Assembly: GCF_008831285.2 (NCBI RefSeq)
Contig: NC_045139.1
Coordinates: 3,418,704 to 3,482,703 of the forward strand
Length of the DNA stretch: 64,000 bases
Direction of reading: 5' to 3'
Source of the DNA: Nymphaea colorata
Lineage: Eukaryota > Streptophyta > Magnoliopsida > Nymphaeales > Nymphaeaceae
Shown: positions 4,900-53,757 of the stretch, piece by piece
Layout: each line of letters opens with the position of its first letter
Numbering within the stretch: the stretch's first letter is position 1
The notes under the pieces: generated by a model
What the model saw: only the letters and a program-made list of their open reading frames with translations
What the model was told of the DNA's origin: nothing
Database searches by the model: none
Made by a program: the position numbers and the translations under genes

Positions 4900-4909
4900 A
4901 TGGCGTTAA
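4844..4909 (+). promoter_or_regulatory. Upstream ORF overlapping the TNL-1 start codon
   Basis: An ATG at 4844 opens a 21-codon ORF beginning MTPSTVVASKQ that ends in TAA at 4907-4909, overlapping the main ATG at 4900 in a different frame. The same upstream ATG precedes TNL-2 (21304) and TNL-3 (49414), also two bases out of frame with the ancestral main start. If this region is in the mRNA, it would reduce initiation at the main ATG. Transcription of it is not shown by the sequence. Confidence 0.35.
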
Positions 4910-9631: not shown

Positions 9632-9711
9632 GTTCTCTCTTGTCTTTGTCTCTGTGTTTTTGTGTGTGTGTGAGGGGGATTTTTGTGTTTATGTTTCTGT
9701 TGCCAATTCAG

Positions 9712-10425: not shown

Positions 10426-10503
10426 GTAAGTCATATGTAGCTACTATTGTGAAAATCACATTTTTCCGATGCATAATTGTAGTCCTGCAATCTATTTTTG
10501 CAG

Positions 10504-11598: not shown

Positions 11599-12104
11599 GT
11601 ATTCTTTGCTTCTCTAAAGCTAATGCCATTATATTTTTCGTTGTTACTGATCCATTAATTGGCGAGATCTGGGTACAACCCCGTGTATGTGGTTTAGCAT
11701 GTTGGGCCACACATTTGCTTTGCCACAGACGGTAGTGTACTAATGGGCAAGTACATTACGCCATTGGTGAAGGGCCCTTTGTGGTTGGCTGATACAAGAA
11801 AATGATGAAATGGGGCAGCCACCTAATGTGCGTTCTATGACCTAAGTCAGGAGTACTTCAGAAAGGTCCATGAACCCATGTCGGCATACTCGTTCCTGTG
11901 TCATTTTGGTACTTAGACGCACTTGGGTATTTTTACATTGAAATTGCTTAATTTTGTAAACTAAAACTGTTTAATTTTACTTAATTTAATTTTTTCCAAC
12001 TCCGTTTTTATTTTGTTTTTAGAGTTATTGTTCAATGTCCATTAATATATAAAATTTTTATTTATATCACTTGTTTATTTAAATGTTACCTTCATTTTTT
12101 TCTG

Positions 12105-12158
<54 letters not shown>

Positions 12159-12795
12159 TCCTATCATATTCCTTGTACCCACATTGACGTGCCATACAGA
12201 GCCCTACCCATGACTTAGATTATGACCATTTCCTACAACAGTCATACTTCACTAGTTTGTCTTCCTGTTTGATTTCATCTTTCCTTTTTAAATTGTAATC
12301 TCCTTTTTTTTAACCTCAACAAATCCATCTTTTGAATTTTCAGACCTGTCAGTTTAATTAGAAAGTCAGCCTTAGGAATGATATTGAACTAAAACGAAAA
12401 AGCACATATGATTCTGGAAATGGGGCAGTGATGAACACGTCGTAATGAACACGTCCAGGTGTATTTTCACGAAGCCAAATTTCACTAAATTAAACTGTCT
12501 CCTTGTCAATGTTTCGAACATCCTCATATCTGAAAACTGATGTTGGATGACTGGATCGGATCCGAGGGGGCACAGAGCATATTTTCATGATTATTTAACA
12601 TTGTTTATATATATATTCTTTTGCCATCTGATTTTTTGTTCATATAAAAATTTCATAAAAATTTGATTACGAGCTTGATCCGAAAGGGCACATGGCATAT
12701 TTTCATGATTTTTTAACATTGTTTATATATATATATATATATATATATAGATATATATACTTTTATATAATGTACTCGATTTATTAATTACTCAG
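11599..12795 (+). other. TNL-1 intron 6
   Basis: GT at 11599, CTCAG acceptor ending at 12795. It contains (AT)n runs at about 12105-12154 and 12724-12762. Intron 6 of TNL-2 (27834-28881) and the left-edge intron (1-363) are alignable. A partly duplicated segment mentions gatccgaagggcac twice (near 12553 and 12677). Confidence 0.7.
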
Positions 12796-13500
12796 GAGGC
12801 AGCCTTTGATGATCTCCAGGCATTCAGTATTGGTTCCGCATTCAGTATTGGTTTCAGCTTGGACGGGGAACGTGTGAACACAATATCTCTTCCGTTTTCG
12901 AGGGGAGGGTGCATGAGGAACGAGCCCCTGCAACTTAAAAGAATGGACGTTTTTGTTTGGAAACTGGTCGAGTCTGAAACAATGGACGTTGGAGACAGAG
13001 TCGAAGAAGATGATAGCGTGCTAAATGTTGGTGTAGCTGTAGGGTCACGTCTCTTCCCAGCTGCTCCGGTCCAGATGGCCCTACAATTAAGGGAGGACCT
13101 TGAAGCCCAACAAAGAGAGGGTCCTTATTACCGTTATTGGCGTTCGTACACAACCAGGTTTGGGAAGGACCGTTCTGCCCCAGGTTTGGCCTGGCTTCTG
13201 AAGTTACTCGATGCCCTACTTTGGATTGCGACGGCAGTCATTGCCCTATTAGAGAAGTACGATGATTTCCGTTCATACACAGGCAGGTTTTGGGAGGACC
13301 GTTATTTCCGTTCATACACATACACAGGCAGGTTTGGGCAGGACCGTTATTTTCGTTCATACACAGGCAGGTTTGGGAAGGACGATGAGATAAATCAGTG
13401 CTTGAGAGTAGAGGCAACATATCTTCCCAGGACCCAACGGTCTTGCTGCTGGGAGCTAACATATCGTTTTGCACTTGAACCTGTTGCCTGTATCATTTAA
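12796..13500 (+). CDS. TNL-1 exon 7: enlarged, altered terminal module
   Basis: Starts EAAFDDLQAFSIG as in the other copies but is 235 codons including stop, against 154-160 elsewhere. Additions: a short duplication of the AFSIG sequence; a ~30-residue insert around 13174-13260 whose core (13186-13251, 22 codons) is almost wholly hydrophobic (Leu, Ala, Trp, Ile, Val) and could be a membrane helix; and repeats of a 13-residue RSYTGRF(G/W)xDRYF unit at 13267-13395. Past FGKDDEIN a small deletion changes the frame, so the family ending is replaced by a Cys/Trp-containing tail ending at TAA 13498-13500. Confidence 0.7.
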   Translation, partial: EAAFDDLQAFSIGSAFSIGFSLDGERVNTISLPFSRGGCMRNEPLQLKRMDVFVWKLVESETMDVGDRVEEDDSVLNVGVAVGSRLFPAAPVQMALQLREDLEAQQREGPYYRYWRSYTTRFGKDRSAPGLAWLLKLLDALLWIATAVIALLEKYDDFRSYTGRFWEDRYFRSYTYTGRFGQDRYFRSYTGRFGKDDEINQCLRVEATYLPRTQRSCCWELTYRFALEPVACII

Positions 13501-16666: not shown

Positions 16667-17790
16667 CATGTATGTCGGCTTCATAAAGCTCTCTATGGAC
16701 TTCGGCAAGTTCTAAGGGCATGGTATGATAGGTTTGGATTTTTTCTACTCTCAAAAGGTTTCTTTTGCAGCATTTCAGATTCTTCTCTCTATATTTATCA
16801 TCATAAAAAGGGAACCATCATTCTATTATTGTATGTGGATGATATCATCTTGACCGGCAGCAATAATCTTTTCATTCAAGAATTCATCACTGAACTTAGT
16901 AATGAGTTCTTGATGAAGGATCTAGGCAGCTTGCATCACTTCCTTGGTATTGAGGTTCTCAAAACATCTCAAGGTCTTTTTCTCAATCAAAAGTAGTATG
17001 CTTACAGCCTCTTAGAACGTGCTGATCTAATAGCTTGTAAACCAGCTGTAACTCCTCTAGTTCAGAATTTTTGGCCACCTTCTGAAGATCCATTGTTTGT
17101 CAATCCTATACTCTATCACAGCTTGGTAGGTGGACTACAATATCTCACGTTCACTCGTCTTGACATTACCTATAGTGTCAACTATGTCAGCCAATATATG
17201 CAGCATCCTACTCAAAGTCAGTTTATGCTTGTTAAAAGAATCCTTCGATATGTTCATGGGACTATTGAACTCGGCTGTATAATTACACCTCAGTCAGTTT
17301 TTCGCTTGCATGCCTACTCAGATTCAGATTATGTTGGGTGTCAAGAAACATGTCGATCCACAACTGGTTTTTGTACATTCATTGGCACAAATGCTATCTC
17401 TTGGACAGTTAAAAAACAACCAACGGTGGCTCGATCTACAACTGAAGCAAAATAGAGATCGATGGCCTCTGCAGCAGCAGAGTTAACATGGTTTTCCTTC
17501 ATTCTCAAAGATATCAGCATTCATATTACTGATCCCTCGCATTTATACTGCGACAATATGTCCGCCTTACAAGTCAGCATTAAACCAGTGTTTCATTCAA
17601 GAATGAAGCACGTTGCCATTGATTATCATTTTTTACGAGAGAAAGTGGCGTTGGGGACCTTAGTTACTCAATATGTTTCTTCATCTCAGCAGGTTGCCGA
17701 TATTTTTACAAAAGCCTTATCTAGATCCGCCATTGAATATCTCAGAGACAAACTGGGTGTCATTCACCCACCACCCAGTTTGAGGGGGCA
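16667..17790 (+). mobile_element. 5'-truncated Ty1/copia retrotransposon: RT and RNase H remnant
   Basis: Begins inside reverse transcriptase at CRLHKALYGL, has WYDRFGFFLLSKG, the RT active site YVDD, MKDLG...HHFLGIE, and RNase H blocks SDSDYVGC, STTGFC, LYCDNMSAL and HVAIDYHFLREKV. Stops interrupt it near 16996 and 17453. A polypurine tract (tttgagggggca, 17779-17790) directly precedes the LTR. Gag, protease and integrase are absent. Confidence 0.85.
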
Positions 17791-18182
17791 TGATAAGAGT
17801 AAATCAGCACAACGTGATTTTAGGGATATTCAAAATATGAAAGTGGTGAAGATCAAGGAAATCACTCAAGATGTTGAGGATCTTGATGTCAATGGAAAGA
17901 CCAGAATTAAGGAAGACGTTGAGGATCTTGATATCAATAGAAAAACGAAAATCAAGGAAGGTGTTAGGGAAATTGATAAATTGAAATTACTGAAATTACT
18001 TAAAAGGGAGACGCACAGATTTGTTCCCATATAATCCTCCTTTTAAGTAATCCTTCATCCACTCAAAAAATCGTAGATCTTGTAAATCTCTTTTGTACAT
18101 ATACTTGTAATAGCTCATTGAAAATGTAACGTGAGAAATATTCTTTAGTCCTCTCATTTTTCTCAATCCCATCCTTTTATCA
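17791..18182 (+). repeat. 3' LTR of the truncated copia element
   Basis: Starts tgataagagt immediately after the polypurine tract and ends about ttttatca, giving TG...CA with matching TGATAA/TTATCA ends (392 bases). The right boundary is less sure, because a ccttttatca phrase also occurs in the TNL-1 5' flank at 4147. No second LTR is present. Confidence 0.6.
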
Positions 18183-21368: not shown

Positions 21369-21877
21369 ATGCAGAGCAATAAGGCAGGGCCTTCTAAGTC
21401 GACCTTACACAGGAATTTCCATGGCCGCTTCGAGTACGATGTCTTCTTGAGCTATCGAGGAGAAGATACCCGCAAGAACTTCGCCGGACTTTTCCGTCAT
21501 ATCCTTGATCAGAAAGGCATACACGCCTTCTTTGACGACTTAGATTTGCAGAAGGGGGAGAAAATTGAGGAGATATTGGATGCAATAAGCAGGTCCAGGT
21601 TCTTGGTTCCCATCTTCTCCCAGAACTATGCTGAATCTAAGTGGTGTCTTAGAGAAGTTGCCAAGATGGTAGAATGTCGTAAGGATGGTGGGCAAGAGAG
21701 GCTTATCGTTCCTGTCTTTTTTGACGTCAATCCGAAGGACGTCCGACACCAGAGCGGCCCATTCAAGGCCGCCTTTTTGAAGCACAAGAAGGAAAGAAGG
21801 GAAGAGGTAGATGGATGGAAGCGCGCGCTGGAATACGTTGGAGGAATTTCCGGCTATGATCTCAAAGCCTACAATGG
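21369..21877 (+). CDS. TNL-2 exon 1: TIR domain
   Basis: 169 codons plus two bases. Intact TIR: YDVFLSYRGEDTR, GIHAFFDDLDL, FLVPIFSQNYAESKWCLREV, VPVFFDVNPKDVRHQ, GGISGYDL. It holds the Glu that is catalytic in plant TIR NADases (RUN1, L6, RPP1, ROQ1). Donor at 21878. Confidence 0.88.
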
Positions 21878-24800
21878 GTGATTCACGCCTCTCTCACCTT
21901 TTCCAATTTTCACTGTTTTAACACCTAATTTTTCCTTTATTCGATACAAATTCTAAAGCAGAGTGTCTGGAAGAGCATTAGGAAGTGATGGATGCATCGG
22001 ATTAGACAGATTAAATACAAATTGCTCAATGCTAAATTTGTTCTGGAAATACAACTGTTATTTTCTATTCTTTCTTTCCGAGAAAGTCCACTAGTTTTCC
22101 ATCCATTCTGTCGGAAGCAAATGTTCACTGTGAGCCACAAATAGTACTGGCATGAAATTATATTTCTATAATTCGATGAATTATAGAAATAATTCATTTA
22201 TTAGGCACGTTACTGAACCCATATGTTCTGCTCCTCATAGTCTTGTGAAGGGTATTTCTAATCATTTTTCAAAAGTTAGACCATTTAGAGAAACTATACT
22301 TTTTGCCAATCCCTTTTTTACCATTATAGGGGTGTTTTACCTTTAATAGCTGTGAGATTTTTTTGGTGAACCTTCCTGGGTTGACTAAGCCTGTGATTCC
22401 CCTGATGAAGTTTTTCTTCCCAAACATAAATCAAGTTACTTTCTTTTAATTTTCTTTTGCAGAAACCAAAGCGAACTTGTCAGTTCAATGGTTGAAAAGA
22501 TTCAGACTGTTTTGGCATCGAAGATGCCCCTTGATCAGGAGGAAGAATATCTTGTTGGTCTTGACCGCCGTATAGAAAAGATGATGGAGCTTATGGACAT
22601 CCAAGTAAAAGACGTCCGGATCATTGGAATCCATGGCGTCGGTGGCGTGGGGAAAACTACACTTGCCAAGGCCATCTATAATAAATGCCATCACAAGTTT
22701 CAGGCGAGTAGCTTCATTGAAAACGTAAGAGAGGTTTACAAATCTAAAGGACCAATGGAGCTCCAAAAGCAGCTTATTCAGGATTTTTCGCATGACAAAC
22801 ATAAAATAAATGAGAATATCTCAAGTAAAGCGGTCGGAATGATTAAACAAAAGGCTAGTAAGAAAACTGTTCTTCTTGTTCTTGATGATGTCGATGATAA
22901 AAATCAGCTCGATGCTTTGGCTGGCAAGAGAGACTGGTTTCATCCAGGAAGTAGAATCATCGTCACTACGAGGCAAGCGGAGATACTTAAATTTGCAGGT
23001 TTGCAGGATGATGCTGTTTATATGGTTGAGGAATTGGATGGGGAAGAATCGCTTCAGCTATTCAAATATCATGCATTTGGAGATCAAGAACCCCAAGAAA
23101 AGTATACCAAGTTATCCAAGGAAGTCGTATCAATTAGCAATGGGCTGCCATTAGTTGTCCAAGTGTTTGGTTCACTTTTTAAGACAGCCGAAACGCCAGA
23201 GGAATGTGACGAGTTGCTGAAAGACTTGAGATCACGTCGTCAAGTTAGCGAAGTTCATGAAAAATTAAGAATATGTTATGATAGTTTAAAATGGAATGAG
23301 CGGTACATCTTCTTGGATATTGCATGCCTTCTTGTCGGCAAAAGTTCAGAGGACGCCATCTATATGTGGGATGGTGACAATCTTTTGCCACACCTAGCTA
23401 TAAGGAGCTTGCAAAATAGGTCCCTTATTAAGATTAACAAGGGAAAGTTTGAAATGCATGACCAAATACGAGACATGGGAAGAGAAATCGTTATGACAGA
23501 AAATCCTTCTCACCCTGAAAAGCGCAGCAGATTATGGTGTGAAGAAGACGTGGTGAAAGCTTTAACCAAGCTTCAGGTAAATTAAGACTTGATCTGATCA
23601 ATTTCTCTTTCTCTAAAGATCATCAGTGATTCGATTTGATATTTATTATTTAGTATTTTTGGTCGATGCACAACTGATTCGTCAGCGAATCGACTGATTC
23701 GATTTATAAACTGTTTTTTCACAACATGGGTCATAGCTCAAAGTAATTTTTATATTTTCAAAACAATTTTTGTTCTTCAAAAGAATATGATCTTCTATCA
23801 GGCAAATCCATTTTTCGAAAGATTGCTCAAAAAGATGTTTTATTCTTTTTATTATTTTCAGTAAGCAGATCTGTAAGTACGTGATGCGGTTTTCAAATTG
23901 CAATTTTTGTAATGCTATGATTGCAATAGAGCATGAATACATGAATTCCTTTACATTAAAAACATTTGGTAAGATAGCAGGATCAAATTGAATACTTGTA
24001 GTATATCTGTTCAGGACTGCTCACGAGAAGTTACCCACAAGACAAAGGCCCGCTTTGTCAAAAGCATACAAGTTCGAGTTATTGAAAAAAACCTTAACGA
24101 AAAATCAAAATGATGTCGACATAAAATAGCAACCTGTCCGTGATCTAGAAATAAAAATAAAATAGTAAATTAGTCATAAATAACAAATTATGATAATAAA
24201 AAATATAATAAATTGTGGCAAAAAAAAATATCGTGCTCTATATTATGAAAAGATCGTTAAAGATAAAATGATAACTTCGTCAATGCAAACAAACTTTAAA
24301 AATAAAGGACAAAGATAGGAAATGGAAAAAGTATTGAGAAGCTTTAATCAATATTAAAAAGGATATCTGCATGGCATTCAAAACACAAATCCATTTTTCA
24401 ATTAGAAAATATATTATCTATATTATGAAAAAAACCATTATTCACTAATTTTAGTAAAGTAAATCGCATATTTCACTATTTTATTTTGGGTGATGCTGAC
24501 ATAAACATGTGAAACTAATTAGGCTATAGTAAAAGAAAATTATTGATTATGACTTTTTTACAAGCTTTTGTCTTGGGGGCGTAGCATAATTGGTTGGCCT
24601 GGAATGATAGATAAAGTAAGATAATTGGTTAGCCTGGAATGATAGATAAAGTAATCGAAAGGGTATGTAAAGAAACTCAATCACTTTTTTTTAATAAAAG
24701 ACGGGATCAACTATAACTTTCTATATGAGAATTGAAACCTAAGCTCTAAATTGATGAATGGAAAAAAGTGCTTGATCAATGCGTTTGCTCTATCTGAGAG

Positions 24801-27800
24801 GTGTAGGTAACACAGAATAAGTTAACTGGAAGACAAGTAAAACAATTTGTTCTGCTATCCTATTTTCCAAGGTTTGATTTGAATTCATTGGGCTTCACCT
24901 TGGAACGTGAGGTTCATATCTGTTCTGCCACTTTTTTTTAGCAACCAAACGGTACCTTGAGTACCTTCGAATGATGAGCTTCGACTCCCTTCCAGTTATA
25001 ATATACTTGCTTTTAGGTGAATTTCTCTAGTCTCACTTTAATGGATCTTCTTCATGAACAAATTGCTGGGGGCGAAAATGTGATCACAAGCAAATATAAT
25101 ATAATTGGTCATGATTCCAGGGAAACAAGATTCAAGGCATCCTTCTCAACTCACGTGAGGAAAGCAAGGCGAAATTGAGCACCGAAGCCTTTGAATTGAT
25201 GTCTGAAATTAGAATACTCTTTATCAACTTGGCCAACTTCAGTTACTGTGAATTTCAGCATCTTCCTGCAAGTTTGAAATGGTTAGAATGGAAAGGTTGT
25301 CCCTTGCCAACTCTTCCACTTGAAAGCAAGTTTAAAAGCATTGTGGTCCTTAACCTTTCTCGAAGTTTTATCAGCCAATTGTGGACTGAAACACCAACAT
25401 GGTCAAGCTCAATACCAAGGAAAGAGGTTTGCGTTTGATCTAATATATGTATAGTAGTTGGCACTCTATGTAATTTTTAATATTCAAGAGTGTTGCTTAT
25501 TGACTAACATTCATAAACCATTTTTGCAGTTGTTTGATGGACTCAAAGTTCTTGACCTCTCCTGTTGTGGATGTCTCAATGCCACTCCCAATTTTGCTAT
25601 GGCACCAAATCTGGAGAAGCTTATACTTGATGAGTGTAACATGTTGAAAGAAGTTGATGACTCCATTGGGTCTCTAAAAAAGTTGGTCTTTCTCAGCATA
25701 AGGGAGTGTGTATCTTTGGAGAAACTACCCAACGAAATATATGGGTTGAGTTCTCTTGTAGTTTTCAACCTTGAAGGATGCAGCACTCTTGTCGCTTTTC
25801 CTCAATTTCTGCCAACAAATTCCACTACTGGCTTTTTGAAACTCGAGCAGCTCATCTTGCGAGATTGCCAAAGCCTTGAAGTTCTACCTGACCTTCTCAA
25901 GTTTCAGTCTTTAAGAAGCCTGCACATAGATGGCTGCCAAGGCCTTGACCACAGAAGGAAACATTTATTTGAGGTTCTCTCTCTACCACTGTCTCTGTGT
26001 TTGTGTGTGTATCTACATGTTTCCTTAAGGGGTTTTTGGCTTTTATGTCTCTGTTGCCAATTCAGGATGTGGCATTTAAAGAATGGGATGAACTCGGCAT
26101 TTCTGGAAGTCGAACACCGTCTTATGAGCAAGAATTTTCTTTCCTACTTCCAGTTGGCTCTATCAATGACCCCTTGCTTTTACAACACTTACAGTGCCAT
26201 GGTTATGGCGATCCATGCGAGAACAGAACCATCAAATTGCACGTTCGTCATGAAGATACGGCAAAACGTGGGGTCCTCTTGGAGACTATGCATGAAGCTC
26301 ACTGTGACAATTCTAAGTATAAGGACGATGTGTATGTTGACTGCTATACAATCAATTTTGGTAGGAATGATAAGATAAATGAGGTCCCAAGAGGCAAAAC
26401 CATAATTATGAAGGTAAAAGCTGCCAACAATTTTGAGCTAACAAAAGTTGACGTCAAAGTTCAAAAAAGAAGCAAGTTTAGAGATGAGAACATGAAGCCA
26501 TTTATCAGCATATCTAGAAGGAATTTTCAGATTGGACTCTCCATATTCTTCGATCTCCATGAAGCAGATAAACTTGATGCCATTGAATATTCAACGAGGA
26601 TGGAGAAACGCATAGATGACATATTGATGCAACTGAATGTCCCATGCGGAGAACAAATGCTGTTTTTTGATTGGATTATTGAAGAACTTATTATCCTTAC
26701 CTTGATTTTTGGTGATATTGATGCTTCATGGTATGAGCAACGGCATGGAACACGGTTGCCACGACAAGAAACTTCAAAGGTAAGTCAGTCATATGGTAGC
26801 TACTCTTGTGAAAATCAAAATTTTTCCGATGCATAACTGTACTGGGCAATACTTTTTGCAGGTTTTAGAGAAAATAAAAGTTGTCAATCTCTCTTATTGT
26901 AAGTTTCTTGTCAAGACACCTGATTTGGCTCGGATCCCAAATTTGGAGGAGTTGATTCTTGACCATTGTGAATGCTTACTTGAAATTGGTGAATCCATTG
27001 GACAACTGAAACGTCTCATCTTGCTGAGCATGGTCGGATGTGCAAATTTAGGTTTTCTCCCCTGTGGAATTTTGCAACTGAATTCCCTTCAACGACTCAG
27101 CCTTCAAGGTTGTTCAAAAATCAAGTTCCTACCTGAAGCAAGCAGGATGAATGTAAGGTTGGAGAGTCTACAGCTGCTCATACTTGATCATTGCACTTCA
27201 TTAACAGAAATACCAGATTATGTTGTTGGGCTCAAGTGCTTACGTTGCCTATCCTTGAAAGGTTGTTCTTTACTTAAACAGATACCTTCTTTCATTGAAA
27301 GTTCGGTGGCCTTAGAGGAGCTCATACTTGACCATTGCACTTCATTAACAGAAATGCCATATTATGTTGGACAACTCAAGTGCCTATGTCGCCTATCCTT
27401 GGAAGGTTGTTCCTCACTTCAACGACTACCTTGTATTTTGCTTTCGGTGGTCTTAAAGGAGCTCATACTTGATCATTGCACTTCACTGACACAAATACCA
27501 GGTTATATTGGAAGACATAATTGCCTACGGCGCCTATCCTTGGAAGGTTGTTCCTCACTTGAACGCCTACCTAGTCCCATGGGAAGGTCGGTAAGAACAT
27601 GCCCACATTGGCTAGGCAACTTGAAGAGGCTAACTAAAATGCAGTCTAAGAACCCTAGGAAATTGGCTTCAGTGCCCGACCTTTCAAACTTGACAGCATT
27701 GGAGGAGTTGAGTGTAGAATTTTGCACGAATCTGGTCGCAATTCCTGGCTTGCAGAACTTAAGATCACTGAAAGTCCTATACATGAATGGCTGTTGGCAT

Positions 27801-28738
27801 CTTGATCTCAATAAGATTTGGTCGCAGTTGAAGGTATTCTTTGCTTCTCTAAAACTGCAGTAGTGATGGCTCTTGTGGTCGGGTGATAGAAGAAAATGCT
27901 GAGATGGGGTGGTCACCTGATGTGCGTTCTATTATAACCCAAGGCCTGGGTACATCAGGTCCACATACCCATGTTGTTGTATTCATACAGTGAGTACTTG
28001 TACTAATTTGGGTATTTTTTAGATTGAAACTGTTTAATTTTACTTGATTTAATTTTTACCAACTCAGTTGTTCATTAATATGTTAAGTTTTTATCTATTA
28101 TCACTTGTTTATTTAATTTTTGTTTTCATTTTGATTTTTTTGGTGTTTATTTTGCATATATATATATATATATATATATATACCCACATTTCTAAAGTTA
28201 CCGTACTTATACTGTACCAAAATAGTACCCATACCATGTGACTTAGATTATGATTACTTCCTACAACAGTGATGCCTCACTAGACAAACTTCTCAGTTTG
28301 TTTCTTGTTTGATTTTATGTTTCTTTTTCAATTTGTAATCTCTTTTTCTTTTCTTTTCTTTTTATCCTCAACAAATCTGTCTTTTAGGTGTTCAAACCTG
28401 TCAGTTTTAATTAGAAAGTCAGCCTTAAGAATGATACTGAATTAAAATGAAAAAGCACAGATGATTCTAGAAGCTAGCCCATGACGAACACGTACATTCA
28501 CGAAGGCAATAGCACGAACGCTATCACCTTGCCAATGTTGCTGACATCCTCATATCTGAAATTTTTAGCTGGGCCTGATCTGAAGGGGCACATGGCATAT
28601 TTTCATGATTTTTTAGCATTGTTTTTATATATATTCTTTTCCCATCTATTTTTTTTCACATAAAAACTTCATAGAAATTTGATGTTAATGGTTATGATCT
28701 GAGGGGTACATGACATATTTCTATGATTTTTTAACATT

Positions 28739-28802
<64 letters not shown>

Positions 28803-29343
28803 TTTTGCTATCTGATTTTTTTAAATAAAAATTTCATATTTCTTTTTTTTATTGAATGTGCTTGCTTTATTGATTACGCAGGAGGCAGCATTTCATGATC
28901 TCCAGGCATTCCGCATTGGTTGCAAAAATCGGAGTGGTGTGAAGACAATATCTCTTCCGTTTCCGAGAGGAGGGCGCTTGAAGAGCGAGCGCCTGCAACT
29001 TGAAAAAATGGGCGTTTTAGTTGAAAGAAAGTCCAAGGAAGAAATAATGGATCATGTTGTCAAAGTCCCAGAAGATGATAGCGTGCTAAATGTTGGCGTA
29101 GCTGTAAGGTCACGTCTCTTTCCACCTGCTGATCGGCCCCAGATGGCGCTACAGTTAAGGGAGGACCTTGAATCCCCATATGCTGGTTACCATTCATACA
29201 CGGCCAGGTTTGGGAAGGACGATGAGATAAATAAGCACTTGAGGCTGGAGCCAACAAGTGCCACTCGAGTCCCAACCCTACACATATCTTGCCAAGACCC
29301 AACGTTCAGGATGGTGCGAGCAAACATATCTTTTCACACTTGA
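21369..29343 (+). CDS. TNL-2: intact TIR-NB-ARC-LRR receptor with two LRR/post-LRR units
   Basis: The one uninterrupted receptor here. Exons 21369-21877, 22463-23576, 25121-25426, 25530-25973, 26066-26779, 26862-27833 and 28882-29343 join to 4521 bases, 1506 residues, with GT-AG introns. TIR about 20-165 with catalytic Glu96 in WCLRE; P-loop about 228-236; LDDVDD about 309-315; GLPL 397-400; MHD 501-503; LRR block 1 about 542-791; internal module 792-1029; LRR block 2 1030-1353; terminal module 1354-1506. Cytoplasmic or nuclear immune receptor by family; no signal peptide. The start is the first in-frame ATG, because the paralogs' ATG reads ATA. Unusually long, and with a second LRR plus module pair, compared with typical ~1000-1200-residue TNLs. 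The effector recognised cannot be told from sequence. Confidence 0.85.
21878..22462 (+). other. TNL-2 intron 1
   Basis: 585 bases, apparently identical to TNL-1 intron 1. Acceptor TTTTGCAG. Confidence 0.8.
22463..23576 (+). CDS. TNL-2 exon 2: NB-ARC domain
   Basis: Continues from exon 1 as G-NQSELVSSMVEKIQ. All NB-ARC motifs intact (see gene entry). Identical in translation to TNL-1 exon 2. Donor CAG|GTAAAT at 23577. Confidence 0.9.
23577..25120 (+). other. TNL-2 intron 2
   Basis: 1544 bases, AT-rich, alignable to TNL-1 intron 2 but diverged after about 23709. A ~30-base phrase around agataattggttagcctgg is locally duplicated (about 24595-24650). No gene inside. Confidence 0.7.
25121..25426 (+). 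CDS. TNL-2 exon 3: LRR block 1, first part
   Basis: 102 codons, phase 0. Begins GNKIQGILLNSREESK and includes SLKWLEWKGCPLPTLP and VVLNLSRSFISQLW. Donor GAG|GTTTGC. The in-frame length shows that TNL-1 carries a one-base insertion here. Confidence 0.85.
25530..25973 (+). CDS. TNL-2 exon 4: LRR block 1, second part
   Basis: 148 codons, phase 0, acceptor TTTTTGCAG. LFDGLKVLDLSCCGCLNATP opens a series of LRRs (NLEKLILDEC, KLVFLSIREC, SLVVFNLEGC). The start is clearly homologous to exon 6 (VLEKIKVVNLSYCKFLVKTP). Confidence 0.85.
26066..26779 (+). CDS. TNL-2 exon 5: internal non-LRR module
   Basis: 238 codons, the same length as in TNL-1. DVAFKEWDELGISGSRTP, FSFLLPVGSINDPLLLQ, YTINFGRNDKINEVPRG and a WYEQRHGTRLPRQ end. 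Sits between the two LRR blocks. Confidence 0.85.
26862..27833 (+). CDS. TNL-2 exon 6: LRR block 2
   Basis: 324 codons of LRRs including three LEELILDHCTSL-type pairs (about 27166, 27310 and 27454). Ends SLKVLYMNGCWHLDLNK before the donor AAG|GTATTC. Confidence 0.85.
27834..28881 (+). other. TNL-2 intron 6
   Basis: 1048 bases with (AT)n at about 28155-28181 and 28740-28800, and an acceptor TTACGCAG ending at 28881. A gatctgaaggggcacatg(g)catat phrase occurs twice (about 28577 and 28698). The small ORFs inside are AT-repeat artefacts. Confidence 0.7.
28882..29343 (+). CDS. TNL-2 exon 7: terminal post-LRR module
   Basis: 153 codons plus TGA. EAAFHDLQAFRIG, ISLPFPRGG, DDSVLNVGVAV, YTARFGKDDEIN and a HISCQDP tail. 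It probably represents the unexpanded family form of this exon. Confidence 0.85.
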   Translation, partial: EAAFHDLQAFRIGCKNRSGVKTISLPFPRGGRLKSERLQLEKMGVLVERKSKEEIMDHVVKVPEDDSVLNVGVAVRSRLFPPADRPQMALQLREDLESPYAGYHSYTARFGKDDEINKHLRLEPTSATRVPTLHISCQDPTFRMVRANISFHT

Positions 29344-30639: not shown

Positions 30640-31860
30640 ATCTCTCACTTGGACAAAATATGTCTTTATACAATCAGACATTATACAAAACCTTAGGAGT
30701 TCGTAATTGCTATCTTATTAAACGTCATTTTCACTAATCTCGTCCATGATCATATCAACACAACCAAAGCGGCTTTCGCTATATTAAAATTAGCTAAACC
30801 TTCAATGATCACAAATGTTAACACAATCAATAACATAGATCTTATATGGATGTATAGCATGAAAATTACATGTAATGTGATTACAACATGTCTATTCTCA
30901 ACTGGTCCTACTTTAAAACCTTATGGAGATCAAAAAACACATAAACATAGAATGGAACCAAATAACTTTAAAATTTATTATGCAAAAAACTGAATATGTG
31001 TCCATACATAAGATCAAACAAAATACAAACTCTCACTAAACCAGCACATCACCAAAGGCGACACCCCTATATGAACAACATGTTCGTAAAAGACCTTAGA
31101 TGTTAAACTCTTGCTAAGCGGATCTGCAATCATAGAATTTGTCCCAATATACTCTAAAGACACCTGACCATTCTGTATCCTCTCTTTAATAGCCAAAAAC
31201 TTAATGTCGATGTGCTTCGACTTTGATAAATTGCAGCTGTTATTAGAGTACATGACTGCTGAATTACTGTCACACAATAACCTTAGTGGTCTTTCTACAC
31301 TATTCATAATGCACAGCCCCATGACAAAATTCCACAACCATAAAGCATGATTGGATGTCTCGTAACATGCTATGAATTCTGCTGCCATGGTTGAAGTAGC
31401 TACAAGTGTCTGTTTGACATTTTTCCATGATATAGCTCCTCCAACCAATAGAAATATATAGCCTGAAGTAGACTTGCAACTGTCTTGGCACCCAGCAAAG
31501 TCAGAATCTGAATACCCAATGATCTCCAACTGGTCTGACTTCTTTTATGTGAGCATAAAATTTTTTGTTCTTTGTAAGTACCTCAATACCCTTTTGGTTG
31601 CTTTCCAATGATCCATACATGAATTACTTAAGTATCTGCCTAACATTCCAACGATAAATGCAATGTCCGGACGAGTACAAACCTAAGCTTACGTAAGGCT
31701 TCTCACAACAGACGAATAGGGAACCATTTCCATTTCCTTAGATTCGATTTCACTTTTAGGGCACTGTTTGAAACTAAACTTGTCTTTTTTAACAACTGGA
31801 GTATCTCCTGGTTTACAATCCTTCATGCCATATCGTCTCGCCTTGCCAAATCCCGATTAA
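30640..31860 (-). mobile_element. 5'-truncated copia retrotransposon: RT end and RNase H
   Basis: Minus-strand reading gives degenerate RT/RNase H blocks: RYGMKDCKPGDTPV, TRPDIAFIVGMLGRYLS, then an open 171-codon piece (31014-31529) with YSDSDFAGCQDSCKSTSGYI, LLCDSNSAVMYSNN, HIDIKFLAIKERIQNG and IADPLSKSL. Several stops and frameshifts. It belongs to a copia lineage distinct from the other elements here. No gag, protease or integrase. Confidence 0.8.
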
Positions 31861-34164: not shown

Positions 34165-34486
34165 TAAAGAAAAGAAGAACTCAAGCAAATACTAGAGACA
34201 ATCATATACGTGGTTTGGCATTCAATTGCCTACGTCCACGGGAAGGAGGAGCTCTTATTGAATGAGAAATTTTTCTACTACCCTCGTTACATGGTAGAGC
34301 ATCAATTTATAGAGAGTGTAGTTACCGTTACTAGGTAAGAATATTTTGGTAAGCAATAACAAGGGAAGGAAAACAATAGAGATGGCAACCCAGCACAAAG
34401 AAAGCAACTCCAAGGAACCAACGGTCATCTTCAATCATGAATTGGGTTTCCAATTAAAAGAGCCTCCTTCCGTTAACCGCTCAACA
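34165..34486 (-). repeat. 3' LTR of copia element 1
   Basis: 322 bases. On the minus strand it begins TGTTGAGCGG and ends CTTTTCTTTA (TG...TA, not the usual TG...CA). The gag-pol stop codon (34481-34483) lies inside it. Confidence 0.92.
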
Positions 34487-37400
34487 CTCCCCCTCAAGTT
34501 GGGAAGAGTGAAGATTAACAATTCCCAACTTGGCCATGGTGTCGGTTAACTTGTCTTTGGTGACGGGTTTGGTGAATATATCTGCATATTGATCTTCACT
34601 TCTAACAAACGGAGTAATAATGCTTCCATTTTGGACTTTTTCACGGATAAAATGACAATCAATTTCAATGTGTTTTGTCCGTTCATGAAACACTGAGTTT
34701 GCAGCTATATGAATTGCGGCTTGATTGTCACAATATAGTTTCATGGGAGGGGATAAGTTAAACCCCATCTCTGTTATTATCGCCTTGAGCCAAGTCAGTT
34801 CGCAAGCTGTGTTTGCCATGGCTCTGTACTCTGCTTCTGCGCTAGACCTCGAGACGATTTTTTGCTTCTTACTTTTCCATGAAACTAGATTTCCTCCAAC
34901 GGTTACACAATAACCGGTGGTAGATCTTCTATCTGACTTACTGCCAGCCCAGTCGGCGTCTGAAAAACCTTCAATAAAAATGTCCTTATTACGTTTCATC
35001 CAAATGCCTCTACCAGGTGCTCCCTTTAAGTACCTTAGAATGCGATTGATGGCGTGAAAATGTGTACTTTGAGGAGCATGCATATATTTACTTACTTCAC
35101 TTACGACAAATGTTATATCTGGCCTGGTGACTGTCAAATATATGAGTTTCCCAACCATCCTCTGATATCTTTTAATGTCCTTGATAGGCCCGTCATTGGC
35201 AGTCATGTCTAAGTTGTGATTGACCTCAATTGGTGTCATTGCAGGTTTCGATCCCAATTTCCTTGTTTCTTTCAGTAGATCCAGAGTGTATTTTCTTTGA
35301 GATAGAAATATACCTTTCTTTGAATGACTTACTTTAATTCCAAGAAAGTATTTTAATCGTCCAAGATCCTTGATCTCAAATTTCTGATGAAGATATTTCT
35401 TGGTTTCTTCTATCAATTTTTGGGACGTCCCTGTAATGACAATATCATCCACATATACTAATAGCAAGATAGTTTCATTATGTGAACGATAAATGAATAA
35501 AGAATTATCTGAAATGCTGCAATAATATCCAAAGTTTATCAGAGCTGAACTAAGTTTTGAGTACCAGGCACGGGGAGATTGCTTGAGACCATAAATGGAT
35601 TTTTTCAATTTGCAGACCAGATTTTCTTTACCTTTGTGTTCCAATCCTTGAGGAATCTCCATATACACTTCTTCTTGGAGGTCGCCTTGAAGAAAAGCAT
35701 TCTTCACGTCAAGCTGATAACATTCCCACTCAAAATTGCAAGCAATAGATATTATAGTTCTCAAAGTAGTCATTTTTGCAACAGGAGCGAAAGTTTCAGA
35801 GTAATCTACCCTCTCAGTTTGAGAGAATCCACGTGCCACCATTCTGGCTTTATATCTTTCAATCGAGCCATCGCTATGAAATTTAACTTTAAATATCCAC
35901 TTACAAGTCACTGGTTTTTTTCCCGAGGGAAGATGAACGAGATCCCAAGTCCCATTTTTTGTTAACGCATCCAATTCTTCCTTTATAGCTTTTCTCCAAT
36001 GAGGTTCCTGATTTGCTTCTTCGAACGTTTCTGGTTCCACCACACTATCTAATTTCACAAACAAAGCAGCTTGTTTTTGGGAAAACTTGTTGTAGTTTAC
36101 TTGAGCTTCAATAGGATACTTGACTTGACTGCTCATGACAAAGTCTCTAAGTCTTAGAGGTGTCTGACGGGTTCTAACTGATCTGCGCATGGTGGTGACT
36201 TCTTCCATAGGTTGTTCGTTCTGGTTTGGAATTATGTTCTCCTCTGGTTGAAAAGCTGGTGGTTGATAGTTAACTTCCGCGTCTGCTATAGGAGAAACAT
36301 TGGGAAGAGATAGAGAATTTGATTGATGATTTTTCATCTCCCCCTGGAATTGATTTTTGAAATAGGCTTGTGCCTCATCAAACTTCACATCTCGAGATAC
36401 AAACATCCTTTTTGATATAGGGTCAAAACATCGAAAACCTTTTTTTCTGGAAGCATAACCCATAAACACACATTTCATGGCACGAGTTTGAAGTTTATTT
36501 CGATTCTTTGGCGATTTCCAAACATAGACAATACAACCAAACTTTTCTAAGTGATCAATAGAATGTTTACCACCCATGAGAACTTCAATAGGCGCTTTAT
36601 TTTCAAGATTGCGTCTTGGCAATCTATTCATAATATAGTTTGCCGTAGAGAGAGCCTCATTCCAAAAACGTTCAGGAACTTGATTTTGAAATAATAAAGC
36701 GTGTGTCACTTCAAGTAGATGTCTATTTCTTCTTTCTGAAACTCCATTATGTTGTGGAGTTTCTCTGCATGTCGTTTGGTGTTCCATACCAGTTTGATTT
36801 GAGAAAGATTCAAAGTTATGATTAACATACTCAGTTCCATTGTCAGTGCGAAAGATTTTAATTTTAGTTCCAAACTGAGTAGAAACCATATTATAAAAAA
36901 TCTGGAACTTAGAAAACACTTCATCCTTGGACCGAAGAAAGTAAATCCAACTTACTTTGGAGAAATCATCAATAAAGGAGAGATAGTATTTGAAGCCATT
37001 GTAAGAATCAATCGGGGCTGGTCCCCAAACGTCTGAATGAACCAATTCAAACATACTACTAGAACAACTTTCAGAGGAAGGAAAAGGTGGTCGGGTAAAT
37101 TTTGCATACCGGCAAACCTCACAAGTATTGCAATCAAACTTAATTTCAGGCTTCAAAATACTCATTACATAACTGGACGGGTGACCTAACCTGGAGTGCC
37201 AACGCTCCTCTTCATCTTTATTTTTACTGGCAGCAAGAGCCTTATTCACGCTATTCAAGTAATAGAGTCCATGAAATTCAGTCCCTTCACCAATCGTCAC
37301 CCCCGTGGTCCGATCCTGAAACACAACCTTTGAAGGCGAGAAGATCACATAGCAATTGTAAGCTTTTGTAATTTTGCTTACAGACATGAGATTAGAGGCT

Positions 37401-38617
37401 AATTTCGGCATATATAAAGCATCAATCGGATTTCCTTTTTCAAAAAACTGCATTTCTCCTTTACCACAAACCTTAATTTTTCCACCATTAGCAATCGTAA
37501 CAGGTTTAATGTCGACACTATCTTTAATATTAGATAATACACTTTTGAAACCAGTCATATTATCTGAAGCACCAGAATCTATAATCCAAGAATTTTCATC
37601 TAAATGTGATAAGAAACTGCATGTACCTGGTCCGTCGTTGGTGTCCTTGGTGGCTAGGGTTGCAGTGTTTTGTTTTATAAAACCTTGCAACAGTTGTGAT
37701 AGTTTTTCCATCGTCACTGGAGTTTCAGATTCCTCATGAAAAGCTTGTGCTGCTCTGTTTGTCTTTACCATCGGACCCTGTTTTTTGTTCAGCTTCCAAC
37801 ATTTCTCTCGTGTATGATTGTCCTTTTTGCAACAGGTACAGAATAACTTCTTTCTCCCTTTGAAATCAGAGTTAGAAGATGTACCAATGTCTTTTTGTTT
37901 TGAGAACATAGCGGCTTGAGAGTCATCATCATTCTTATTCAAAGGATTCATAACTTGACGACGACATTCTTCACGCATGATGATAGAACATATTGTGTTT
38001 AACTTAGGAAGATCAGCAGTCATAAGTTCCTGGCTACGAAGTTGTTCATATTCTGGCCTAAGACCAGCCAACATTTGAAAGATTTTATCGCTTTCTCTGT
38101 TCTTCGCCAGAGTTGTTGCATCGGTGGCTGCTGGGGTATAAGAGTCCCATTCATCCCAAAGCGCACGTAACTGTCCAAGATACTCAGTATACGACATGTT
38201 TCCTTGCTTTAAATTATTGATTTCTTGAGTAATCTGATATCTTTTGGCAACATTGTATTGCTGACTAAAAAGATCGCGAACAGCTTCCCATATTTCCTTT
38301 GCCGTTTCCAAAAAATAAAAACTTCGAGCAATCTTTGTGTCCATAGAATTAAGAAGCCATGACATAACTGTATGATCGTTTGACTCCCACTCTTCTAGCT
38401 TCGGATCTCCTTCTGGTGGCTTTGGTTTACTACCAGTTACATGACCAAATTTTGCCTTTCCACTAAGGAAAAGTTTAGCAGATTTGGCCCATGTGAGGTA
38501 GTTGAACCCATTTAAAGGTTCGGTGGTGATTTTGAGGGTTGGGTTAGCACTCTCAACCACGTTCGTTTGCTGATGGTATGTTGCATTGTTGCTTCCTGAA
38601 ATTCCGCCTTCGGCCAT
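34481..38617 (-). CDS. Gag-pol polyprotein of copia element 1
   Basis: 1378 residues, one frame. Gag (UBN2-like) to about residue 230; zinc knuckle CTCCKKDNHTREKC near 260; aspartic protease DSGAS near 345; GAG-pre-integrase RWHSRLGHPSS; integrase with HSDVWGP, TDNGTEY and the PQHNGVSERRNRH region giving the D,D,E triad (about 500-640); reverse transcriptase [20 protein letters not shown] and YVDDIVITG (near 1054); RNase H SDADWAGSKSDRRSTTGY (near 1222) and CDNQAAIHIAANSVFHERTKH. Copia domain order (integrase before RT). The length is normal for an autonomous copia element. Confidence 0.95.
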   Translation of the reverse strand: MAEGGISGSNNATYHQQTNVVESANPTLKITTEPLNGFNYLTWAKSAKLFLSGKAKFGHVTGSKPKPPEGDPKLEEWESNDHTVMSWLLNSMDTKIARSFYFLETAKEIWEAVRDLFSQQYNVAKRYQITQEINNLKQGNMSYTEYLGQLRALWDEWDSYTPAATDATTLAKNRESDKIFQMLAGLRPEYEQLRSQELMTADLPKLNTICSIIMREECRRQVMNPLNKNDDDSQAAMFSKQKDIGTSSNSDFKGRKKLFCTCCKKDNHTREKCWKLNKKQGPMVKTNRAAQAFHEESETPVTMEKLSQLLQGFIKQNTATLATKDTNDGPGTCSFLSHLDENSWIIDSGASDNMTGFKSVLSNIKDSVDIKPVTIANGGKIKVCGKGEMQFFEKGNPIDALYMPKLASNLMSVSKITKAYNCYVIFSPSKVVFQDRTTGVTIGEGTEFHGLYYLNSVNKALAASKNKDEEERWHSRLGHPSSYVMSILKPEIKFDCNTCEVCRYAKFTRPPFPSSESCSSSMFELVHSDVWGPAPIDSYNGFKYYLSFIDDFSKVSWIYFLRSKDEVFSKFQIFYNMVSTQFGTKIKIFRTDNGTEYVNHNFESFSNQTGMEHQTTCRETPQHNGVSERRNRHLLEVTHALLFQNQVPERFWNEALSTANYIMNRLPRRNLENKAPIEVLMGGKHSIDHLEKFGCIVYVWKSPKNRNKLQTRAMKCVFMGYASRKKGFRCFDPISKRMFVSRDVKFDEAQAYFKNQFQGEMKNHQSNSLSLPNVSPIADAEVNYQPPAFQPEENIIPNQNEQPMEEVTTMRRSVRTRQTPLRLRDFVMSSQVKYPIEAQVNYNKFSQKQAALFVKLDSVVEPETFEEANQEPHWRKAIKEELDALTKNGTWDLVHLPSGKKPVTCKWIFKVKFHSDGSIERYKARMVARGFSQTERVDYSETFAPVAKMTTLRTIISIACNFEWECYQLDVKNAFLQGDLQEEVYMEIPQGLEHKGKENLVCKLKKSIYGLKQSPRAWYSKLSSALINFGYYCSISDNSLFIYRSHNETILLLVYVDDIVITGTSQKLIEETKKYLHQKFEIKDLGRLKYFLGIKVSHSKKGIFLSQRKYTLDLLKETRKLGSKPAMTPIEVNHNLDMTANDGPIKDIKRYQRMVGKLIYLTVTRPDITFVVSEVSKYMHAPQSTHFHAINRILRYLKGAPGRGIWMKRNKDIFIEGFSDADWAGSKSDRRSTTGYCVTVGGNLVSWKSKKQKIVSRSSAEAEYRAMANTACELTWLKAIITEMGFNLSPPMKLYCDNQAAIHIAANSVFHERTKHIEIDCHFIREKVQNGSIITPFVRSEDQYADIFTKPVTKDKLTDTMAKLGIVNLHSSQLEGEC

Positions 38618-38972
38618 AGAGAAAAAATGATAAAGGCAGCAAGGTTTGAGGAATAAAAAACAATTCTGTCAAGAACCTGGCAAACCAGTTGTATTGAATG
38701 GAGGAGCGGCCTTGAGAAGAATAGGTCCGCGTTGTATGACCCACGGATGAGGCTTCAACAAAGATCACGCACCAAGAGTTCTGATCTCGCCGCGAGCAAA
38801 ACAGAGAGCCGACGTTGGCAGCTACTTCTTCTTCTCGAACCAGAACAGAGGACGGTCCTCAAGAAGTTCCTCGAAAAGGAGAAAAAGAGAGACCGAACCC
38901 AGAAAAACTTGCTGGAAGAAATGCCAATGGCGAAAAATTTCTCACCGTTCTTTGAACCTGGCTCTGATACCA

Positions 38973-41318: not shown

Positions 41319-44300
41319 TCAAACTGGTGTGTAAAGGTTTGTGACACCCAGTTTGCATAAAAGATGATTAAAACCTTCTTTCCCAAGTGCCTTAGTAAAT
41401 AAATCTGCTATTTGATCTTTGCTTCGAATATAGCATGTTCGTATTATCCCTTGAAGCAGTTTCTCTCGTACAACATGACAGTCAAGTTCGATGTGTTTTG
41501 TCCATTCATGAAACACTAGATTCGCAGCAATGTGTAATGCAGCTTGATTGTCACAATATACTGTTATAGGCGATATTTGACTGAAACCCATATCATGTAA
41601 TAGATATCTTAACCATGTAATCTCACATACTAGATTTGCCATGGATCTGTATTCCGCTTCTGCAGATGATCTGGATACCGTGTTTTGTTTCTTTGTCTTC
41701 CAAGATATAAGTACTGATCCAAGAAAAACACAATAACCGGTGACAGAACGTCGTGTTTGTTGACACGCGGCCCAATCTGAATCGCAGAAAGCACTTAATT
41801 GCATATTGTTTTCTTTGTTCATAAGAATGCCTTGATCAGGATGCTTTTTTAGGTAGCGAATGACACGGAATGCTGCTTGTAGATGTGGTAGTCTGGGTTG
41901 CTGCATGAATCGACTTAACACATGTACAGCATATTGTATGTCCGGCCGAGTAATGCTCAAATATATTAGCCTCCCAACAAGTCGACGGTATTGAGTTGGA
42001 TCCTTAATGAATTCTCCTTGTTCGATCTCTAAATTATGTTTTTGTTCCATAGGAGTATCGGCCGGTTTTGCTCCCAAAAGACCTGCTTCATGAATTATGT
42101 CAGTTGCATATTTTTGTTGGGAAATATATATACCTTTGGCTGAGCAAGCAATTTCAATTCCTAGAAAATATTTAGATTTGCCCAAATCTTTCATGTGAAA
42201 CTTTTTGCATAAGAAAATTTTGAAATTGTCAACTGCCTTTTCTGTGTTACCCGCAATTAATAAATCATCAACATATATTAGGATAGCAATAAAAGTTTTA
42301 CCGCTTCTAAATGTGAATAATGTATGATCAGCTTTGGATTGCGTGAACCCGTATTCTTCAAGAGAAGTTGAGAGCTTGTAAAACCAATTTCATGGGGATT
42401 GTTTCAATCCATAAAGAGATTTGTGCAATTTACATACCTGATTTTCCCCCTGTTTTGCATATCCTTGTGGCATTTGCATAAATACTTCTTCAAGCAAGTC
42501 TCCATGCAAGAATGCATTATTAACATCCATTTGGCACATGATCCAATCTTGATTAGCTGCAATGGTGAGAAAGGTACGTACCGTTACCATCTTTGCAACT
42601 GGTGCAAAAGTTTCGTTGTAGTCCAGCCCCTCTTGTTGAGAGTATCCTTTAGCTACCAAACGAGCTTTATATCGTTCAATAGATCCATCCGATCTCAACT
42701 TGATTTTGTAGACCCATTTGCTCCCAATTGGTTTCACTCCCTTTGGAAGTGTCGTAATGGTCCAAGTTTTATTCTCTTGAAGGGCACGAATTTCGCAATC
42801 CATGGCATCTTGCCATTCCTTGTACTGCACAGCTTCTTCATACTTTTGAGGCTCAGATTTAGACATAAGAGAGGTGAGAAACACAAAATGTCTATTAGAA
42901 AAACGTTGAAAAGAGATAAACTTGTTCAACTCATACCTTGTTCCTTATTTGCGACCTGACATGAGAGGGCTATTGGTTGAAGGTGAGGCGACGAGGGTAC
43001 AAAAGTAGTCATTCAACCAAGTTGTGGGCTTTCTAACTCGAGTGGATCTCCTAATGGGTCCAGAAGTCTGATTTGGATCAAGAGAAGAGTTTGGCTCGTT
43101 GGAATTTAAGGATACAATGAAGTCTTCTTGTTGTCTAATGGATCCGGGTGTTGGATTTGGATCTTGATCAAAAGACGGGTTGAAATTGGTGGGTAAAGTA
43201 GGTTCTTCTAGATGTTCTCTATCAAGATTCAAAGGTTCTTCGATCTCTAAGTGGGTTGTATCTAGTGGTGTACTAAGAAACATTCCATTGGCATCGTCTT
43301 GATAGTTAACTTCATCATGGTTGTAAGGTATGGGTAAAACAATATTATTTTTGTCATTCTTCCTGTTTTGGAAAGGAAAAATATGTTCGTAAAACACAAC
43401 GTCTCGACTAGAAAACACTTTGTGAGTTTCTATATCATACAACTTGTATGCTTTTTGCCCCTCGGGATATCCAATAAATATGCATTTGGATGCCCGAGAC
43501 TCGAATTTATCCTTTTTGTGACTGGTGTTAGTGGCGTAGCATAGCGACCCAAAAATTTTCAAATGTTTAATATTGGGCTTTTTCTTAAACAATCTTTCAA
43601 AAGGGGTTTTTCCATCAAGTTTTAAAGAAGGGATACGATTTATCAAATAGGCAGCCGTTAAAATGCATTCCCCCCAAAATCGTATAGGAAGGTTCGATTC
43701 AAATCGAAGAGCCCTAGCAACCTCGAGGAGGTGTCTATGTTTACGCTCTACTACACCGTTTTGTTGTGGCGTAGCAACACAACTATGTTGATGGGTAGTC
43801 CCTTGATTTTGTAAAAATTCTTTCATTTCGAGTGAGAAAAACTCAGTCCCATTATCGGATCGTAAAGATTTAATTTGGCAATTAAATTGGGTTTTGATTA
43901 AGGCAAAAAAAATTTTGATGACATGAAGTGCTTCAAACTTATGCCTCATTAAGAAAATCCATGTGGCACGGGAAAAGTCATCTACAATACTAAGAAAATA
44001 GTAGGCACCAGAAATAGTGGATTGGGAGTAAGGGCCCCAAATATCACAATGAATCAAATCAAAAGGATGAGTTGTAGAAATATCACTCAAATCAAACTTA
44101 AGTCGTGTCTGTTTTGCACGATGGCACACATCACACATATGATCATTTTTCAAAACAAGACTCAAATCTAAATTTTTGTTCACTAATTTCAAACGAGAAG
44201 ATGAAATATGACCTAATCTCTTATGCCAAAGTTCATGCGAAGAAAGGGAAAAATAGGTATAAGCACAAGTTGGTTCTTGTTGGAGAACATAAAGGCCGCC

Positions 44301-45812: not shown

Positions 45813-45825
45813 CGCTCTGATACCA

Positions 45826-53655: not shown

Positions 53656-53757
<102 letters not shown>

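Follow-up and report, generated by a model that had tools for sequence, protein, structure and literature searches.

Among TNL receptors, which join a TIR domain, an NB-ARC domain and leucine-rich repeats (LRRs), ROQ1 and RPP1 oligomerise and hydrolyse NAD+. Post-LRR (PL) domains can be repeated within one such receptor; according to passages of PMC4851768, 12 peach TNLs carry more than one PL, Prunus Ma has five PL domains, the grape protein GSVIVT01037222001, given there without TIR-NBS, is predicted to read LRR-PL-LRR-PL-LRR-PL, and flax L6 has no PL domain. Whole receptors can also be joined, a passage of PMC3782705 listing TNLTNL proteins in grape and TNTNL proteins such as Arabidopsis RPP2A, functional in resistance. 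Here we describe TNL-2, a gene lying in a window of 64,000 nucleotides from the water lily Nymphaea colorata (assembly GCF_008831285.2, contig NC_045139.1, positions 3,418,704 to 3,482,703; plain coordinates below are those of the window). A preliminary description of this DNA had presented the gene as an LRR-PL module duplicated within one receptor, in contrast to known TNLs, said usually to have one LRR block and at most one post-LRR domain, a view of the family that the Ma and grape proteins of PMC4851768, as presented there, make outdated. Our analysis supports TNL-2 as a single TIR-NB-ARC-LRR-PL-LRR-PL gene, and we consider it rather probable, on sequence grounds, that it is a collapsed fusion of two TNL genes, with one signalling engine, an LRR1-PL1 platform and LRR2-PL2 as main sensor.

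TNL-2 consists of seven exons on the forward strand, with GT/AG borders and one stop-free frame of 1,506 aa, in which TIR, NB-ARC, LRR1, PL1, LRR2 and PL2 follow one another. Exon 1 (21369–21877) encodes the TIR domain, with its SKWCLRE motif present, and exon 2 (22463–23576) the NB-ARC, with P-loop GVGGVGKTT and MHD both intact. LRR1 begins in exon 3 (25121–25426) and continues in exon 4 (25530–25973), exon 5 (26066–26779, 238 residues) holds PL1 and then a tail, exon 6 (26862–27833) encodes LRR2, and exon 7 (28882–29343) PL2 plus the stop codon. Exons 1–3 joined (643 aa) match the Pfam models TIR (1.8e-40), NB-ARC (2e-36) and WHD_ROQ1 (7e-13); several LRR models are matched in the gene and exons 4 and 6 are LRR, so that TIR, NB-ARC and LRR stand in one open spliced frame, as in a TNL. 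The joints, all described as phase 0 at first, are so from the exon 2/exon 3 joint onwards.

A family search over the 408-Mb assembly, whose homologue counts are lower bounds, placed exon 5 at seven loci of a cluster at C2:3.32–3.49 Mb, TNL fragments without exon 5 in the same region being excluded from this count. Matches to exons 1–7 occur in order at all seven loci, some split into pieces, and four of these genes keep an open frame throughout, with identical phases: TNL-2, TNL-0 (1,507 aa), Tb (1,447 aa) and Ta (1,607 aa). The other three, TNL-1, TNL-3 and Tc, are broken. The TIR-NB-ARC-LRR-PL-LRR-PL order in one gene, as first described, is therefore supported by the frame and phases kept in the four intact genes and by an intron of only 82 bp between exons 5 and 6 of TNL-2 (26780–26861). 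The gene model rests on DNA, and exons 1–5 and exons 6–7 might be two adjoining transcription units taken for one gene; we regard this as very improbable, since splice borders, phase and open frame are conserved in the four intact genes and the 82-bp intron leaves little space for a separate promoter.

The origin of this architecture is written, in our reading, in the tail of exon 5. The PL1 part of the exon (26066–26479, ~138 residues, modelled with low confidence as all-beta and without C-JID match in Pfam) is followed, within the last ~90 residues, by a segment resembling strand A at the start of a TIR (QIGLSIFFDLHEAD, 26528–26569) and then by a 22-residue NB-ARC segment (EYSTRMEKRIDDILMQLNVPCG, 26585–26650, compared with EYLVGLDRRIEKMMELMDIQVK in exon 2), in the expected order. 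The latter carries the pattern EYxxxLDxRIxxMMxxLD and matches the stretch immediately before the NB-ARC P-loop. Compared, as a control, with exons 1, 2, 3, 4 and 6, the tail brought up the NB-ARC of exon 2. Aligned with hhalign to a reference of seven first-half NB-ARC exons (five from the cluster and two from relatives), the seven exon-5 tails scored 27.5, the best of 250 shuffles reaching 24.9, and the three tails with a long linker scored 32.5 (best 26.9 of 250 shuffles and 26.3 of 150 block shuffles). In a scan of 344 offsets along the NB-ARC exon of the cluster, the correct one scored 26.5 and the runner-up -2.5, a result reached by none of 50,000 permutations. The same offset was best in all nine single copies, with 5–10 identities out of 22 and 0–20 of 20,000 permutations; these include the C7 and C13 copies, both held out of the profile, which give the fairer test because the segment had been chosen after the hhalign match. 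For the TIR, strand A counted from a shared SRR scored 23.7 against 5.7 for the next best of 90 offsets (40 of 200,000 permutations), in a comparison of the long-linker copies TNL-3, Ta and Tc (three of seven) with the relatives X1 and X3 (two of three, see below), X2 and the four short-linker copies being left out. The tail looks like a linker, a TIR-start-like segment, the start of an NB-ARC and an eroded end.

Relatives of exon 5 outside the cluster show a PL running into a real TIR. Three homologues, X1, X2 and X3 (C2:3697281, 3711709 and 3728562, in the region C2:3.69–3.74 Mb), match exon 5 of TNL-2 over residues 3–142 or so only, their PL1 homologue being found at expectation values (E) of 3e-25 to 4e-17. 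In all three, the PL frame continues openly into a TIR (Pfam E 1.1e-17, 3.5e-16 and 1.7e-16), with NB-ARC and LRR exons downstream of this second TIR; the downstream exon of X1, the one of the three that was scanned, matches the Pfam NB-ARC at 1.6e-19. X2 and X3 are also preceded by a first TIR-NB-ARC. An alignment of these PL-TIR exons to exon 5 pointed to the exon-5 tail as the remnant of a second TIR-NB-ARC. In each of the second TIRs, Ser replaces the Glu of SKWCLxE, the catalytic residue, so that the second engine may have started to decay in the open fusions too. Profiles of exons 5 and 7 detected no second PL in these fused relatives at a domain E below 1, the end of X3 being the edge of the searched DNA. 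Another relative, on C11, has a frame that stops 19 residues past the PL, as expected of an unfused gene, and C7 and C11 carry additional PL-TIR matches, the majority of them interrupted by stops. The same genome holds an unfused TNL (C11), three open PL-TIR fusions (C2) and the collapsed form of the cluster, whose genes have only the stub in place of the second TIR and NB-ARC of a TNL-TNL fusion. A decayed TIR/NB-ARC stub in exon 5, together with a PL that runs into a second TIR in three relatives, argues for the fusion of two TNL genes; the origin by exon-pair duplication proposed earlier is not supported by these features.

The two LRR-PL units nevertheless resemble each other in part. Exons 4 and 6 of TNL-2 are 41% identical over 142 aa (E 5e-26), and exons 5 and 7 are weakly similar by BLASTP (E 0.005 in TNL-2 and 0.002 in TNL-3). 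A profile comparison of exon 5 with exon 7 gave E 2.8e-6, colinear across exon 5 residues 2–109, and the comparison of hidden Markov models suggested in the preliminary description came out above its shuffle controls, with an hhalign score of 35.8 against best scores of 23.4 (300 column shuffles) and 31.4 (200 six-column block shuffles); against a lone exon 7 the score drops to 28.6 (TNL-2) and 30.5 (TNL-3), under the best block shuffle. Seven exon-5 and six exon-7 copies, Tc exon 7 being left out here and in the frame searches below, scored 35.5, the highest of 200 shuffles being 24.9, and profiles built from nine and five sequences matched across 42 columns at the end of the domain (E 1.6e-6). 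Searched against 2,884 open frames, the exon-7 profile retrieved, after exon-7-type frames, seven exon-5 frames at E 0.0011–0.075 (the C7 copy plus six cluster copies, TNL-0 not being among the matches listed); the exon-5 profile retrieved, once past frames like itself, seven of the exon-7 type at E 0.0015–0.15, TNL-2's own exon 7 not being among the matches listed. A remote common domain, the PL, is thus likely in both exons, and the likeness is restricted to the first ~110–138 of the 238 residues of exon 5. The proposed equivalence of exons 4+5 with exons 6+7 consequently stands for the LRR exons and, weakly, for the beginning of exon 5, the tail taking no part in it. The FG-x-x-D-x-IN block said to be common to exons 5 and 7 is indeed present in both, and their supposed AF-x-x-L-x-SI opening is loose (AFKEWDELGIS against AFHDLQAFRIG).

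This likeness feeds the principal alternative, an internal tandem duplication of LRR and PL exons within one TNL, the tail of exon 5 being a later extension. The identity of exons 4 and 6, the remote domain common to exons 5 and 7, and the fact that exon 6 is closer to exon-4 types than it is to the fused relatives' second LRR would all fit such a duplication. We nonetheless hold it to be unlikely, because exon 5 contains NB-ARC and TIR-start-like segments in the right order, the introns are without DNA-level similarity, and a tree of 22 rows over the first 92 residues places exon 6 in a separate clade (97/99), apart from the one that holds exon 4 (89/96), so that any duplication would predate the cluster. 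A recent exon-pair duplication was ruled out by this tree and by DNA comparison: what the exon 4–exon 5 and exon 6–exon 7 stretches have in common is one piece of 66 bp at 73% (E 8e-4) plus three of 17–27 bp at E 0.42, a likeness too scant for a recent event; a 22-bp match besides these reflects an overlap between the two stretches as compared.

The identity of PL1 and PL2 was sought among known domains. Exons 5 and 7 of TNL-2 have no Pfam match above cut-off; C-JID (PF20160) gave no match at E 1 to exon 5 or exon 7 of either TNL-2 or TNL-3 and none at E 10 to any of nine PL1 members, a search of the whole genome retrieved neither C-JID nor its controls and so carries no weight, and no PDB chain was found by phmmer up to E 10, the best profile matches standing at E 1.7 and 1.4. 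An assignment to C-JID was therefore rejected by sequence, and by fold the models are too weak to carry such a claim: they are beta-rich and of low confidence, with mean predicted local distance difference test values of 43.7 (exon 5) and 59.9 (exon 7), and Foldseek listed for them jelly-roll-like proteins, including viral capsids, CBM15 and Eph receptors, none at E 0.001. We take these matches as no more than a hint of a beta sandwich. The PxWF motif, given in a passage of PMC4851768 as the PL-1 motif of the Van Ghelder and Esmenjaud PL domain, is absent from all seven exon 5 and all six exon 7 translations (Tc exon 7 left out).

The preliminary description proposed a receptor that could present two sensing surfaces; substitution rates suggest that the two halves are not equivalent. 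They were computed for seven copies (five for exon 7) on gap-free columns only, leaving out exon 7 of TNL-1 and Tc, exon 3 of Tc, exon 1 of TNL-1 and exon 2 of TNL-1 and Tc. The median synonymous divergence (dS) between cluster copies is 0.27–0.89 depending on the exon, which indicates that the seven-exon plan is no recent accident. Exon 4 is 148 aa long in all four intact genes, and its pooled ratio of nonsynonymous to synonymous substitution (dN/dS) is 0.31, with 0.09 at exposed LRR positions. Exon 6, with 264, 321, 324 and 414 aa in the same genes, has a ratio of 0.54 (upper bound 0.69) and of 0.66 at exposed positions (interval 0.36–1.36). PL1 gave 0.44, the stub 0.59 (0.43–0.86) and exon 7, that is PL2, 0.53 (upper bound 0.71). 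With LRR1 conserved and constant in length, and LRR2 variable in repeat number and evolving faster, the distal LRR2-PL2 half is the likelier sensor, rates being no proof of recognition. The faster evolution of the second half, together with the three broken copies out of seven, could also be expected of a decaying relic without function; this we find improbable, given four intact frames and dN/dS below 1 up to the upper bounds of exon 6, exon 7 and the stub.

Several results weigh against the reading of TNL-2 as a collapsed fusion. On the side of the NB-ARC, two of 150 block shuffles reach the score of the seven tails; adding the second NB-ARCs of the relatives to the reference lowers the scores to 24.3 (all tails) and 29.3 (long-linker tails), and those second NB-ARCs alone give only 11.8 and 13.2. 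Since the choice of the 22-residue segment followed from the hhalign match, only the two held-out copies, themselves homologues, give an independent offset test, and the P-loop region expected next is not recognisable (3,354 of 50,000 permutations). On the side of the TIR, the unanchored strand-A segment scores 16.5 against 16.0 for another TIR strand, three of 500 shuffles reaching the strand-A score; the linker before it is not similar (40,008 of 50,000 permutations), and neither the next 24 residues of the tail, corresponding to its middle helix, nor the end of the exon is TIR-like (395 and 118 of 500 shuffles). The idea that the whole tail is a decayed TIR was rejected, its hhalign score of 14.4 being below the best shuffle (20.1), support being confined to strand A, and the next segment fitting an NB-ARC. 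Among the relatives, X1 has no visible first TIR-NB-ARC in 6.4 kb upstream, the second NB-ARC of X3 lies about 6.5 kb past its second TIR, and the tree does not unite exon 6 with the second LRR of these genes; with the stub not matching their second NB-ARC either, these relatives may represent a separate or much-diverged fusion. Finally, the dN/dS values are pairwise and pooled, broken copies included, with the wide interval of 0.36–1.36 for exposed positions of exon 6.

From the open frames, the NB-ARC segment, the TIR-start-like segment and the relatives whose PL runs into a TIR, all directly observed, we infer a fusion followed by a collapse. Two tandem TNL genes would have fused, the PL exon of the first running into the TIR of the second, and an internal deletion would then have removed the second TIR and NB-ARC except for the ~90 residues that close exon 5, the second LRR and PL being retained. 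In the resulting protein, the first TIR and NB-ARC would act as a single signalling engine that oligomerises and hydrolyses NAD+, LRR1-PL1 would be a conserved platform packing on the NB-ARC, PL1 and the stub would connect the two halves, and LRR2-PL2, faster-evolving and variable in its repeats, would be the main sensor contacting effectors. More tentatively, and with less confidence than in the fusion itself, we suggest that by shedding its second engine and keeping both sensors the fusion became a stable, conserved arrangement of one engine and two sensors in series, LRR1-PL1 being frozen as a regulatory platform and recognition evolving in LRR2-PL2.

The neighbourhood of TNL-2 holds further members of the family. 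TNL-1 (4909–13500) and TNL-3 (49464–56709), both on the forward strand, had been credited with the plan of TNL-2; they do have its seven exons, and both are broken, TNL-1 by a frameshift in the TIR exon, the lack of an AG at the TNL-2-type exon 4 acceptor and a repeat insert in exon 7, and TNL-3 by a TAG in the NB-ARC exon. In TNL-1, exon 7 (12796–13500) shows a PL2 enlarged by an imperfect repeat run of the SYTxRFGxD block. Over ~2 kb covering the latter half of the TIR exon, intron 1 and the NB-ARC exon (21600–23600 against about 5140–7130), TNL-1 and TNL-2 show 100% identity wherever they align, with the sole exception of a 7-base gap, the one that breaks TNL-1; identity drops to about 80% and below toward the 3' end. 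The signalling half of this pair looks recently homogenised or copied, and the sensor half older. The PL2 exon of TNL-0 (364–837, forward strand), a paralogue lying mostly upstream of the window, is followed about 340 bases later by a partial exon-7-like piece (1179–1328), which has 73% identity to a portion of exon 7 of TNL-2, and an exon-7-like frame without other exons nearby occurs at C2:3386730-3387173.

Within TNL-2, exon 6 stays open for 9 codons beyond its donor and then meets a stop (27834–27863), so that a transcript ending there would be without PL2. TA or CT microsatellites occur within LRR-PL introns (28150–28182 and 28740–28800, and 53660–53755 in TNL-3); a passage of PMC4851768 reports microsatellites in this intron for 60% of peach PL-carrying TNLs. 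Between the TNL genes, frames resembling Copia-type retrotransposon polyproteins or parts of such polyproteins were recognised by eye at 34481–38668 and 41319–45905 (reverse strand), 16997–18034 (forward) and 31014–31544 (reverse), one of them uninterrupted for 1,395 codons.

These results suggest how tandem receptor genes could give rise to a receptor that has one engine and two sensors; possible steps of this route (unfused, fused with a second TIR, collapsed) are visible in one genome. They make testable the idea of a nucleotide-binding LRR receptor that recognises through a second LRR-PL, the first being kept as a regulatory platform. The fusion would be overlooked if such genes were annotated as exon duplications or split in two.

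Compared with ROQ1 and RPP1, TNLs with a C-JID (PDB 7jlv, 7jlu and 7crb), TNL-2 aligns through its exons 1–4 to residues 16–780 of ROQ1 (E 2.5e-138) and has, as they do, a domain after the LRR, probably a beta-rich one; unlike them, it continues with a second LRR-PL, and its PL domains match no C-JID in Pfam and no PDB chain convincingly by sequence. The top TIR-only chain of the PDB list is the flax rust resistance protein 7vu8 (6.8e-37), and the PL domains of TNL-2 set it apart from flax L6 as characterised in the passage of PMC4851768. With Prunus Ma, TNL-2 has in common post-LRR domains repeated in one TNL; as far as the passages of that source go, Ma repeats the PL alone, whereas TNL-2 alternates LRR and PL with a stub between, and the PL exons of its family lack the PxWF motif of PL-1. 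The grape GSVIVT01037222001, compared by description only, alternates LRR-PL units as TNL-2 does, and the passage that describes it (PMC4851768) names no stub such as TNL-2 has. Passages on Eucalyptus (PMC4709456), Melaleuca (PMC10720953) and integrated domains (PMC12787737) do not contain the collapsed form, and a literature search, outside which most subscription papers lay, returned no account of two LRR-PL units with a TIR/NB-ARC stub between them. TNL-2 resembles grape TNLTNL proteins and RPP2A, as presented in the passage of PMC3782705, in the joining of TNL domains in tandem in one protein, and differs from them in that its second TIR and NB-ARC are gone save for the stub. Multi-PL TNLs, an LRR-PL-LRR-PL-LRR-PL protein from grape and TNLTNL fusions have all been published before; what is new here is the stub.

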